Assembly: GCF_000768345.1 (NCBI RefSeq)
Contig: NZ_AVPS01000004.1
Location: 124,001-188,000, forward strand
DNA length: 64,000 nt
DNA from: Lysobacter concretionis Ko07 = DSM 16239
GTDB taxonomy: Bacteria > Pseudomonadota > Gammaproteobacteria > Xanthomonadales > Xanthomonadaceae
Direction: 5' to 3'
The notes under the pieces were generated by a model that was not told where the DNA came from, did no database searches, and saw nothing but the letters and a program-made list of their open reading frames with translations. Below are positions 62,009-64,000 of the stretch, in pieces (position 1 is the first letter of the stretch; every line of letters begins with the position of its first letter). The translations under genes were made by a program, and so were the position numbers.

Positions 62009-62574
62009 AGTTGACGGTACCCACCATGCTGACCCTGCTGCGGATCGTGCTGATCCCGGTGCTGGTGTTGGTGTTCTATCTGCCATTCAAGGGTGCGAGC
62101 GTGGCGGCCGCGGCGATTTTCGCGTTCGCTTCGTTCACCGACTGGGCGGACGGCTGGATCGCCCGCCGCTACAACCAGTTCTCCGCATTCGGTGCATTTC
62201 TCGACCCCGTTGCCGACAAGCTGATGGTGGCCGTCGCGCTGATGCTGACCGTGCAGAAGCATCCGACCGTGTGGATGGCGCTGTGGGCGGCGGTGATCAT
62301 CGGCCGCGAGATCGCGGTGTCCGCGCTGCGCGAATGGATGGCCGAGCTGGGCCAGCGGGCGAAGGTGAAAGTCGCCACCATCGGCAAGGTCAAGACGGTT
62401 GTGCAGATGATCGCGTTGATCTTCCTGCTGTACCAGGCGCCGCTGTTCGGCCTGCCGATCTTCACCATCGGCGAATGGCTGCTGGCCGGGGCCGCGCTGC
62501 TTACTCTGTGGTCGGGTTTCGCCTACCTGCGGGCCGCGTGGCCTTCGCTCAAGGCGGATGCAGAAAATAGTTGA
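62005..62574 (+). CDS. pgsA: CDP-diacylglycerol-glycerol-3-phosphate 3-phosphatidyltransferase
   Basis: First committed step to phosphatidylglycerol. 189 aa, integral membrane. The CDP-alcohol phosphotransferase motif is DWADGWIARRYNQFSAFG with FLDPVADK following (about 48-73). Four to five helices. Its stop codon overlaps the -35 hexamer of the next promoter. Confidence 0.96.
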   Translation: MKLTVPTMLTLLRIVLIPVLVLVFYLPFKGASVAAAAIFAFASFTDWADGWIARRYNQFSAFGAFLDPVADKLMVAVALMLTVQKHPTVWMALWAAVIIGREIAVSALREWMAELGQRAKVKVATIGKVKTVVQMIALIFLLYQAPLFGLPIFTIGEWLLAGAALLTLWSGFAYLRAAWPSLKADAENS

Positions 62575-62598
62575 CACATTTTTTTTCGTGCCTACAAT
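62571..62598 (+). promoter_or_regulatory. Strong sigma-70 promoter of the tRNA cluster
   Basis: TTGACA (62571-62576) and TACAAT (62593-62598) with a 16-bp spacer, 14 bases before tRNA-Gly. The -35 box lies over the pgsA stop codon. Confidence 0.9.
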
Positions 62599-62612
62599 GT
62601 GCGGCTCAGTCA

Positions 62613-62688
<76 letters not shown>

Positions 62689-62722
62689 GATCCACCACTT
62701 CGGTTACGCCGGGGCGGGAACG

Positions 62723-62752
62723 AAACAAACCCCGTTCGCGGGGTTTTGTTTT
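62723..62752 (+). terminator. Terminator-like hairpin after tRNA-Gly
   Basis: AAACCCCG (62727-62734) with CGGGGTTTT (62739-62747) closing a TTCG tetraloop, then GTTTT. Read-through must occur, or tRNA-Cys has its own promoter (a TATGCT lies at 62791-62796). Confidence 0.85.
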
Positions 62753-62813
62753 ATCAGGCGGTTGCCTCGCGCAACCGTGGTCGCAGGCGGTATGCTTGCG
62801 ACGCGCGTCATCC

Positions 62814-62887
62814 GGCCGGGTGGCAGAGTGGTTATGCAGCGGACTGCAAATCCGCGTACGCCGGTTCAATTCCGACCTCGGCCTCCA
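62814..62887 (+). tRNA. tRNA-Cys(GCA)
   Basis: 74 nt, acceptor GGCCGGG with CTCGGCC, anticodon arm CGGA-CTGCAAA-TCCG with anticodon GCA, encoded CCA. Confidence 0.97.
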
Positions 62888-62892
62888 TATTG

Positions 62893-62920
62893 AAACCGCG
62901 CTCCGGCGCGGTTTTCTTTT
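62893..62920 (+). terminator. Terminator-like hairpin after tRNA-Cys
   Basis: AAACCGCGC (62893-62901) with GCGCGGTTTT (62906-62915), loop TCCG, then CTTTT. Confidence 0.85.
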
Positions 62921-62934
62921 GTCGCGACCCATCC

Positions 62935-62979
62935 GCCCGGATGGCGGAACTGGTAGACGCAACGGACTTAAAATCTGTT
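62935..62979 (+). pseudogene. 5' half of the resident tRNA-Leu(UAA), truncated after the anticodon stem
   Basis: GCCCGGA acceptor strand, a complete D arm (GGCGGAACTGGTAGACGC), and the anticodon arm ACGGA-CTTAAAA-TCTGT with anticodon TAA. From 62979 on, the expected variable arm, T arm and TCCGGGC acceptor strand are missing; no matching 3' half occurs in the window. It follows tRNA-Gly and tRNA-Cys, the usual position of tRNA-Leu in this lineage, so it is probably the native gene. Confidence 0.85.
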
Positions 62980-62990
62980 TTGTCAAGTCC
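62964..62990. other. Probable element-chromosome junction (att-like site)
   Basis: GGACTT (62964-62969) and AAGTCC (62985-62990) form an inverted repeat that straddles the point where tRNA identity ends. Crossover sites of tyrosine recombinases with tRNA targets often have such arms around an anticodon-loop core. Integrase is not in the window, so this is inference. Confidence 0.45.
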
Positions 62991-63137
62991 TTTCTGCTAG
63001 AACTACCGAGCCAGAAGGTCAATAGTGACAACGGTTTGCGGGCATCCGAGCTGTAGCTTTGCAGCTAGGCTTGACGGCCAGGGGCCAGCTAGGCGCCAGT
63101 AGATGGAGGTAGGTGTTTTCAGTGCGTTGAGCACTAC
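62991..63137. other. Element end between the truncated and the complete tRNA-Leu
   Basis: No gene is supported. Direct repeats CAGCTAGGC at 63062-63070 and 63086-63094; GCCAG at 63077, 63084 and 63095; an inverted repeat AGTGC (63121-63125) with GCACT (63131-63135) just before the tRNA; and AGCTG/CAGCT at 63049/63062. No promoter with good spacing is seen; TTGACG (63071) and TAGATG (63100) are 23 bp apart. Confidence 0.5.
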
Positions 63138-63455
63138 GCCCGAGTGGTGAAATCGGTAGACACAAGGGACTTGAACAATTTGAGCCTTCGGGGGGAAACG
63201 CCCGAAGTGAAGCCCGTCAAAGTCGGCGAACGCCCTGGATGCTTTTGCATCCGAGCCAACGCCGAGCCAAGCCCAAGCTACAGCTTGGGAAGGTGTAGAG
63301 AGCAGACGGCGGGCACCTACGGCCGCAAGGCTATGGTGAAGGCGTGCTCCAGACCACGAACGCCCTGCGTTTGAGCAGGGCGGCGGCGAAAGTCGAAGTG
63401 GTAAGAAAATCCCTCGCCGAAAGGCGTGCCGGTTCGATTCCGGCCTCGGGCACCA
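63138..63455 (+). tRNA. tRNA-Leu(UAA) interrupted by a group I intron
   Basis: Exon 1 is 63138-63172 and exon 2 is 63406-63455, together 85 nt. Joined, they give acceptor GCCCGAG with CTCGGGC, anticodon stem AGGGA with TCCCT, loop CTTAAAA (anticodon TAA), variable arm CGCC-GAAA-GGCG, T arm GCCGGTTCGATTCCGGC and encoded CCA. The split is between U34 and A35, the same place as the intron of cyanobacterial and plastid tRNA-Leu(UAA). All stems pair perfectly only after removal of the intron, which is strong support for the boundaries. Confidence 0.93.
63173..63405 (+). ncRNA. Group I self-splicing intron (IC3-like) in tRNA-Leu(UAA)
   Basis: 233 nt, preceded by U and ending in G. Core pairings found by eye: P2 CTTCGGG/CCCGAAG (63186-63192/63201-63207) with a GAAA loop; P3 GCCCG/CGGGC (63212/63310); P4 TCGGCG/CGCCGA (63223/63260); P5 GGATGC/GCATCC; P6 CCCAAGC/GCTTGGG; P7 GAGCA/TGCTC (63300/63345); P8 CACC/GGTG; P9 ACCAC/GTGGT with an inner 8-bp stem and a GAAA hairpin. 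P1 is possible between the exon CUU and GAG at 63182-63184. Core strings match the Azoarcus tRNA-Ile intron as I remember it, while P7 differs there by compensating bases (GACTA/TAGTC). No endonuclease gene is inside. Confidence 0.92.
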
Positions 63456-63461
63456 ATCCAG

Positions 63462-63492
63462 AGCCGCCCCTGTTCACGCAGGGGCGGCTTTT
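63462..63492 (+). terminator. Intrinsic terminator after tRNA-Leu
   Basis: An 11-bp perfect stem, AGCCGCCCCTG (63462-63472) with CAGGGGCGGCT (63479-63489), then TTT. The stop codon of the convergent DUF2274 gene (63474-63476) lies in its loop. Confidence 0.88.
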
Positions 63493-63716
63493 CCGTTCTT
63501 GGGCTGTGTGCGCTTGAATCCCCGATCCCCCGCCATAAACGCCTCCAGCATGTGCGGGATCAACTTCTCTGCATCGACCGCCTCGCCATACGCCTGCGCG
63601 TGCAGCGCGGCGTAGCGGTCGAGGTCGGCTTTCAAGCTGGCCGGGCAGGCAAAGGTCAGTTTGACGCTTTCGGTCTTGGGCAGCGGCCCGAGCCGCAGCT
63701 TCTTGGTCGTGCTCAT
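63474..63716 (-). CDS. DUF2274 protein of a conjugative element
   Basis: 80 aa. KLRLGPLPKTESVKLTFACP, then a helical part ending LIPHMLEAFMAGDRGFKR, is the DUF2274 pattern. Such genes commonly follow trbI in integrative conjugative elements; function unknown, though the ribbon-helix-helix-like look suggests a small regulator. Its ATG overlaps the trbI stop (ATGA). Confidence 0.85.
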   Translation of the reverse strand: MSTTKKLRLGPLPKTESVKLTFACPASLKADLDRYAALHAQAYGEAVDAEKLIPHMLEAFMAGDRGFKRTQPKNGKAAPA

Positions 63717-64000
63717 TGCGAAGCTCCCCGATTGAAGAACAGCGGCTGGTACGGCCGCAGCACCAGATCCCGGTTGACGATGATTCGCACGGGCAGGCCA
63801 GGCCGCTCGGTCAGCGTCGGCTGGATGTTCATGTTGCGTCGGGTGATCTCCTGGCCGACCTGATTGATGCTGTCCTGGGCGCTGTCACGCCCGGCGATGA
63901 CGATGCGGTTGCCGTCTTGGCGGTTCTCCGGCGCGGCCAGTTCTGCGCCGACGCCCAGCAGCGTCGTCAGCACCGCGCCCGCGACGATGCGCTTCCAGTG
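63713..64000 (-). CDS. trbI: Conjugal transfer protein TrbI, C-terminal part (continues beyond window)
   Basis: VirB10-type protein spanning the envelope in the mating channel. The frame is open to the last base of the window; only the C-terminal 95 residues are present. RIVAGAVLTTLLGVGAEL, GQEITRRNMNIQPTL and RPGLPVRIIVNRDLVLRPY are typical of the VirB10/TrbI outer-membrane-side end. The rest of the trb module should lie to the right. Confidence 0.9.
   Translation of the reverse strand, partial: HWKRIVAGAVLTTLLGVGAELAAPENRQDGNRIVIAGRDSAQDSINQVGQEITRRNMNIQPTLTERPGLPVRIIVNRDLVLRPYQPLFFNRGASQ

Follow-up and report, generated by a model that had tools for sequence, protein, structure and literature searches.

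Group I introns are carried by tRNA-Ile(CAU) and tRNA-Arg(CCU) genes of Proteobacteria. Introns of the same group interrupt the tRNA-Leu(UAA) genes of cyanobacteria and plastids (PMC4033280). The anticodon loop is also used by integrating elements: a 7-bp overlap equal to this loop is a classical tyrosine-recombinase site (PMC8371274), and anticodon-centred islands are common in Islander, where islands in tRNA genes normally restore their target by a tRNA fragment in attP (PMC4383910). Randau and Soell proposed that disrupted tRNA genes resist the integration of mobile elements (reported in PMC4390854 and PMC4033280). Closest to the locus described here are ICE_KKS102_4677 and ICEbphKF708, which have the att sequence GATTTTAAG and belong to a branch filed in print in the Tn4371 family; tRNA-Leu is the main target of ICE_KKS102_4677 (PMC9960961, PMC6563109). 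A published passage sets the ICE site at the 3' end of tRNA-Leu; the word 'intron' is absent from PMC9960961 and PMC6563109, and a replacement tRNA from the excerpts of them considered here. The ICE family and its tRNA-Leu target are thus already published, the replacement tRNA reported below apparently not, as far as these excerpts go. Among open-access PMC papers, no ICE with an intron-bearing replacement tRNA was found described in the portions available; the arrangement may have been noticed in the primary ICE_KKS102_4677 report or in the Randau and Soell paper.

The window, i.e. the whole stretch of 64,000 nucleotides that was analysed (G000:C21:124001-188000), belongs to a host genome of 3.03 Mb. 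The original prediction had seen in it a group I intron between U34 and A35 of a tRNA-Leu(UAA) gene, whose half-exons fold once 233 nt are removed, and this part held up well. With introns allowed, ARAGORN reported a tRNA-Leu(taa) with a 233-nt intron at exactly 63138-63455; with introns disallowed no tRNA was reported there, the unspliced precursor being unrecognised. Removal of 63173-63405 left an 85-nt tRNA-Leu(UAA) with a cloverleaf, a long variable arm and an encoded CCA. The intron lies inside the anticodon loop, the 5' exon ending with U34, and the splice sites restore this loop. By reading of the 5' splice site, exon CUU can pair with intron GAG including a U-G pair, and the terminal nucleotide of the intron is G. 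The suggested comparison with the Rfam group I model gave a match of the full model (RF00028) to 63163-63352 with E=9.1e-6 (1.4 kb searched) and 31.2 bits, which falls short of the gathering score of 50 and for this reason did not appear in the default scan of the window. For 23 named pairs of P3, P4, P6, P7 and P8, 98.7% of the cells were paired in 20 related cores, and only 30-49% in a control with the pairing partners slid; ten of the 23 pairs changed on both sides. One of five covariation measures, the number of further pair types, disclosed no excess (14 vs 14.3 in shuffles). By its P3-P8 core with covarying helices, 63173-63405 is a group I intron, and it is expected to splice itself in the cell. 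It resembles other bacterial tRNA group I introns in its small size, its place in the anticodon loop and its core helices. In the tRNA-Leu(CAA) genes L157, L159, L160, L207 and L245 the intron follows C34, which would make the splice-site pair C-G, not the usual U-G.

Table 1. Features around the left end of the element, in coordinates of the window
Feature	Position	Strand	Basis
tRNA-Gly(GCC), resident, first of the Gly-Cys-Leu cluster	62613..62688	+	tRNA scan; order in three same-genus genomes
tRNA-Cys(GCA), resident	62814..62887	+	tRNA scan; same-genus gene order
Resident tRNA-Leu(UAA), 5' half, cut at the anticodon loop	62935..62973	+	joined halves equal the sister gene
attL core CTTAAAA, the 7-nt anticodon loop	62967..62973	+	sequence of both element ends
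ICE left-end spacer, 164 nt	62974..63137	+	sequence; consensus promoter scan
Cargo tRNA-Leu(UAA), 5' exon, ending with C32 U33 U34	63138..63172	+	ARAGORN and spliced fold
Group I intron, 233 nt, ending in G	63173..63405	+	RF00028, ARAGORN, covariation
Cargo tRNA-Leu(UAA), 3' exon with encoded CCA	63406..63455	+	ARAGORN and spliced fold
Terminator-like hairpin with T-rich tail, behind the cargo tRNA	63462..63489	+	comparable hairpin in 26 of the 36 ICE left ends
80-aa protein gene adjoining trbI	63474..63716	-	relatives in other ICE left ends
trbI, first gene of the ICE trb/tra set, continuing past the window to C21:188987	63713..64000	-	Pfam TrbI 3e-60

While the intron gene itself was confirmed, the original prediction had omitted the broken 5' half of another tRNA-Leu(UAA) just upstream (62935-62973) and had taken the intron-bearing gene for a resident gammaproteobacterial tRNA-Leu gene. 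That assignment had to be abandoned: the gene is cargo of an ICE, and the true resident is the split one. Its 3' half ends at G000:C21:228048, 41 kb off, beside a tyrosine integrase gene. The joined halves have the same sequence as the intact tRNA-Leu(UAA) of the sister species G459, which follows tRNA-Gly and tRNA-Cys; the order Gly-Cys-Leu(UAA) is intact in three genomes of the genus (G459, G456 and G462). The sequence CTTAAAATC (62967-62975), consisting of the 7-nt anticodon loop and two bases, is common to both element ends. Neither end makes a whole resident tRNA-Leu, as would be the case for a tRNA-restoring island, in which an attP fragment regenerates the target. Comparison of the junctions with the empty site shows that integration of the ICE cuts the host tRNA-Leu(UAA) in the anticodon loop and that the gene is not repaired. 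A search of the G000 genome for another tRNA-Leu(UAA) disclosed none, the remaining tRNA-Leu reading CAG, CAA, UAG and GAG, and a pattern for the intact intronless gene matched once in each of the three sister genomes and nowhere in G000. In four further genomes of the genus (L236-L239 in G460, G454, G461 and G455) the sequence retrieved behind tRNA-Cys contained no tRNA-Leu; matches resembling tRNA-Leu were situated on that contig at a distance of some 7-25 kb, possibly owing to other insertions at the Gly-Cys-Leu cluster.

Between the tRNA halves, the 41-kb element starts with trbI and the trb/tra set and ends with the gene of the tyrosine integrase (399 aa); genes for a DUF3363 protein, ParA and ParB lie between the two. 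Pfam domains of the integrase are Phage_integrase and an arm-binding domain, and elsewhere the element matched TrbI, CagE_TrbE_VirB, T2SSE ATPase, T4SS-DNA_transf (TraG-like coupling protein), ParA-type ATPase and ParB_N. The DUF3363 protein is the relaxase candidate, its match to the Relaxase profile being weak and below the cut-off. With integrase, trb/tra genes, relaxase and ParA, the element is by gene content a Tn4371-like ICE, and the conjugation genes that had been reported to adjoin the tRNA are indeed there (trbI in Table 1). Integration at TTTTTCAT, which characterizes the Tn4371 family, does not apply here, where the core is CTTAAAATC. The latter is the reverse complement of GATTTTAAG and thus the same core as in ICE_KKS102_4677 and ICEbphKF708, although it lies in the anticodon loop and not at the 3' end of tRNA-Leu as the published passage has it. 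In C. basilensis KF708 (G043; L088, L148) the element of about 61.8 kb, which is the published size, contains an intron-bearing tRNA at its left end. A protein with a SIR2-like domain, possibly a defence gene product, is encoded inside the ICE of the window (L034:16476-17858, i.e. C21:222475-223857).

The cargo tRNA is located 164 nt behind the broken resident 5' half and points in the same direction. A simple consensus scan found no promoter-like site in the 62974..63137 spacer; the sole such site within 62550-63600 precedes tRNA-Gly. Terminator-like hairpins occur between the resident tRNAs. Among loci beside tRNA-Leu introns, relatives of the 80-aa protein were found in both of the other ICE left ends (85% and 96% identity).

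To see how general the arrangement is, we studied the best 80 of 275 loci obtained in an integrase search with one genome per species. The close set among them comprised 39 loci of at least 79% identity, 38 of which had a readable end (L081 had none). CTTAAAATC occurred about 180 nt upstream of the integrase start codon in 37 of these 38 loci, the end of L082 reading CTTGAAATC instead, and was followed by a tRNA-Leu 3' half in all of the 37 but L072. Of the more distant relatives within the best 80, six contained CTCAAAATC and a tRNA-Leu 3' half and L113 contained CTTAAAATC, while most others had an end with an A-run, located outside tRNA genes; its sequence, ATGAAAAA or a similar one, corresponds to TTTTTCAT of Tn4371 read on the opposite strand.

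Left ends were sought in 49 of the 80 genomes with the left end of the window as query. Thirty-six related left ends with an intron-bearing cargo tRNA-Leu were obtained (33 UAA, 3 CAA), a set that favours intron-bearing ends because the query holds the intron gene. The query also holds the spacer, and the 49 genomes gave no match to the spacer only; a trbI-based search found no intronless UAA left end. A host tRNA-Leu 5' half ending with CT[TC]AAAA preceded the cargo by 157-253 nt in the same direction in 34 of the 36 ends. L157 showed no host tRNA-Leu 5' half beside the intron cargo, and L150, likewise without a host half, lies outside a tRNA gene in a genome keeping the intact tRNA. The element's own letters start directly after the loop in L155, L156 and L158-L161; in the other ends TC comes next, as in the target. 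The host halves were variable, the cargo being far more constant across left ends. Wherever both could be seen, cargo and target were the same isoacceptor (39/39 ends: 32 UAA, 2 CAA with intron and 5 CAA without). G004 holds one UAA and one CAA element; in the latter the 5' half, the cargo and the 3' half are all of the CAA type and share a contig.

Integrase and intron-bearing left end resided on one contig in 18 copies, 17 of them in a consistent orientation (G000, G003, G016, G004 twice, G007, G008, G012, G013, G014, G018, G022, G025, G029, G034, G043 and G047). These 17 represent 16 assemblies of 15 strains, as the assemblies G003 and G016 come from the same strain and are not independent; the same applies to G435, which has the same coordinates as G004. 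The left end at G011:C1:108551-109052 and the integrase at 2669563-2670756 are far apart and in an orientation unfit for one element, due to an inversion or an assembly error. In G013 the resident 5' half equals the cargo 5' exon over 35 nt, and the resident is split and the cargo not; this is no true competition, since the cargo arrived with the element. Eight integrase-bearing genomes whose left ends were not found stand outside all counts (G001, G006, G010, G026, G030, G032, G036 and G037). The left-end pattern was present in none of them, no trbI at all was found in six, and the trbI of G037 gave no recognisable end. The contig of G001 ends beyond the relaxase gene, that of G032 inside trbL, and the trbI of G026 belongs to another element type with a TTTTTCAT-type end without tRNA-Leu. 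G026 also contains one weak partial match to the intron model, which is not in a tRNA according to ARAGORN. Non-tRNA-type left ends (ATGAAAAA, i.e. TTTTTCAT), reached via trbI in G026 and G049, served as a control and were without tRNA-Leu.

Five alphaproteobacterial genomes with CAA ends had no intron detectable by the covariance model near the element (the one of G040 lies on a different contig). A pattern search revealed in all five a host CAA 5' half, followed some 160 nt on by a complete intronless tRNA-Leu(CAA). The loop of the five cargos is TTCAAAA, with a different stem as well, vs CTCAAAA in the split target, whose 5' and 3' halves fit as acceptor and anticodon stems. Left and right ends of these elements were paired by sequence, because they are on different contigs; in G040 and G041, trbI lies on the left-end contig about 10-13 kb off. 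The U32 loop occurred in 11 of 87 pattern-matching alphaproteobacterial genomes, so that the alphaproteobacterial case by itself is modest evidence. These five rule out the assumption that an intron is present in all elements of the integrase group. In total, the loop of the target was intact in none of 41 cargo tRNAs, 36 being interrupted by an intron and five altered by a base change.

We also asked whether hosts retain another gene for this tRNA. Of the 34 genomes with intron-cargo elements, 31 gave no match to the pattern for an intact tRNA-Leu(UAA) without intron; the informative count is 28 of 31, because the resident genes of G007, G008 and G021 are of a type that this pattern cannot detect. 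Its sensitivity can be judged from the intact gene being found in 3/3 sister genomes and 4/7 hosts of non-tRNA-type elements. Of the three exceptions, G039 and G027 are expected, the former having a CAA target and the latter an element outside a tRNA gene. The third, the draft genome G024, contains an ICE in tRNA-Leu(UAA) and an intact UAA gene of different sequence (G024:C42:3742-3791), either a second copy or a contamination. These counts suggest that the host depends on the cargo for its UAA-reading tRNA-Leu. As the cargo was the only tRNA-Leu(UAA) found in the G000 genome, a loss of the left end other than by clean excision would be expected to harm or kill the host.

To trace the origin of the intron, an intron-core model was run against 398 proteobacterial genomes, giving 46 matches in 40 genomes. 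By their exons, 27 of the matches (24 UAA, 3 CAA; 25 genomes) were assigned to tRNA-Leu, several of which ARAGORN mislabels; the rest resided mostly in tRNA-Arg and CAU-anticodon tRNA genes. In 23 of the 25 genomes no split tRNA was present within 400 nt upstream. Three of the 27 matches, in G000 and G435, adjoin a split tRNA and trbI, which disposes of the idea that proteobacterial tRNA-Leu introns are all ICE cargo. A strict motif search for tyrosine recombinases beside the 27 matches gave none. Resident tRNA-Leu introns are therefore common enough for capture. In the tree, the alphaproteobacterial cargo L161 grouped with alphaproteobacterial-type genes, apart from the beta-type cargo, and the CAA cargos grouped with two resident CAA genes. 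The copies are related to one another, and the tree topology makes at least two recruitments of intron genes likely, few overall and perhaps two or three.

Some further copies were encountered. Plasmid pCTX-M3 (NC_004464.2) contains an intron-bearing tRNA-Leu(UAA) near aac(3)-IId (L126:4995-5293) that is close kin of the cargo L161 and matches 1280 plasmid records, of which 1273 reach at least 99% identity. Of 5426 complete E. coli genomes, 625 have a match to the intron gene of the window, with an identity of 60-80%, and no feature is annotated there among the ten matches listed. Plasmids of Mycetohabitans rhizoxinica and Candidatus Vallotia tarda (L177 and L179; Burkholderiaceae) carry a tRNA-Leu(UAA) with a group I intron of 262-263 nt, with no split tRNA in roughly 295 nt upstream. 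In L162 and L178 an ORF that by eye resembles another tyrosine recombinase ends ahead of an intron-bearing tRNA-Leu(UAA), and in L181/L196 (G056) the inverted 3' half of another tRNA-Leu(UAA) is situated about 200 nt upstream of an intron-bearing copy.

To account for the arrangement, we propose that the replacement gene is hidden from the element's own integrase. As the end sequences and the empty site show, the tyrosine integrase uses the anticodon loop of the host tRNA-Leu(UAA) as crossover site. Integration breaks the gene because the element end shares little more than the loop with the target, and the ICE therefore carries a whole replacement tRNA-Leu(UAA). From its position, the replacement may profit from the transcription of the former resident gene. 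An intronless replacement with the loop of the target would be a possible site for the integrase, and should be avoided, since recombination between it and the ends of the element could otherwise follow. The intron between U34 and A35 separates the two stem arms of the 7-bp loop by 233 bp; so split, the DNA should no longer be a target, while the RNA could be restored by self-splicing. In the intronless relatives, the changed loop base of the replacement may have the same purpose. That the intron or base change hides the replacement is suggested by the lack of the target's intact loop in all 41 cargos. We assign a probability of about 0.7 to the reading that the ICE breaks tRNA-Leu(UAA), carries a replacement and conceals it from its own integrase by the intron or a base change. 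The wider statement, that a whole ICE branch breaks an important host tRNA on entry and brings an 'immunised' replacement of the same isoacceptor hidden by a ribozyme or a base change, appears reasonably probable.

A captured intron could also be a passenger, because resident introns occur in about 6% of the sampled Proteobacteria. The ICE would then have needed any replacement and captured a resident intron-bearing gene, whose intron is without benefit to the element. Such an origin has its attractions: resident introns of this kind occur in tRNA-Leu genes of 23 of the 398 genomes in addition to the two ICE carriers, the tree places several resident genes among the beta-type cargo, and G263 has a resident intron-bearing tRNA-Leu at its Gly-Cys-Leu cluster. 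It is nevertheless unlikely, since no intronless UAA cargo was seen (in a set found by an intron-holding query), the alpha-type recruitment of L161 is separate from the beta-type, so that intron genes were probably taken at least twice, and position 32 is changed relative to the target in each of the five intronless CAA cargos.

Group I introns can be mobile, and an intron spreading alone would need no role in the ICE; another use for the element, e.g. a delay or regulation of tRNA maturation after transfer, is conceivable as well. Both are quite improbable. The 233-nt intron is too short to hold an endonuclease gene, and the cargos diverge in step with the integrases (r=0.76 in 35 pairs and 0.74 in the 28 distinct ones), with values as high in one of 5000 permutations for the distinct pairs. 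Inside the UAA clade (25 pairs) the co-divergence was only moderate, with r=0.40 and 11 of 5000 permutations as high. Finally, resident intron-bearing tRNA-Leu genes do exist in Proteobacteria, and conjugation genes might adjoin an ordinary one of the host by chance. An ordinary resident gene is ruled out by the split gene 164 nt upstream, with its other half beside the integrase, and by the empty site in the sister species; as the same cargo is also found in elements of many other hosts, a chance neighbourhood can be practically dismissed.

The locus had been called unusual, which is correct for its arrangement and not for the intron position, as 25 of the 398 sampled proteobacterial genomes have such an intron. 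The unusual feature is that an element breaks the host tRNA-Leu and supplies an intron-interrupted replacement. Whereas bacterial tRNA group I introns sit in resident genes, this one belongs to the cargo of an element targeting the same loop, and whereas anticodon-loop islands restore their target, this ICE leaves the gene split and carries a whole replacement. Target tRNA genes are usually repaired on integration; the mode seen here departs from this and could make the host bound to the element. The arrangement is what the idea of Randau and Soell predicts; as far as that proposal is reported in the excerpts available, it concerns disrupted and split tRNA genes of host genomes, whereas here the protected gene would be that of the mobile element. 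If our reading is true, the locus would be a natural case of a tRNA intron acting as an integration shield, used by the mobile element itself, with the host made dependent on the element for its UAA-reading tRNA-Leu. In any case it offers a setting in nature where the proposed resistance of intron-bearing tRNA genes to integration can be tested.
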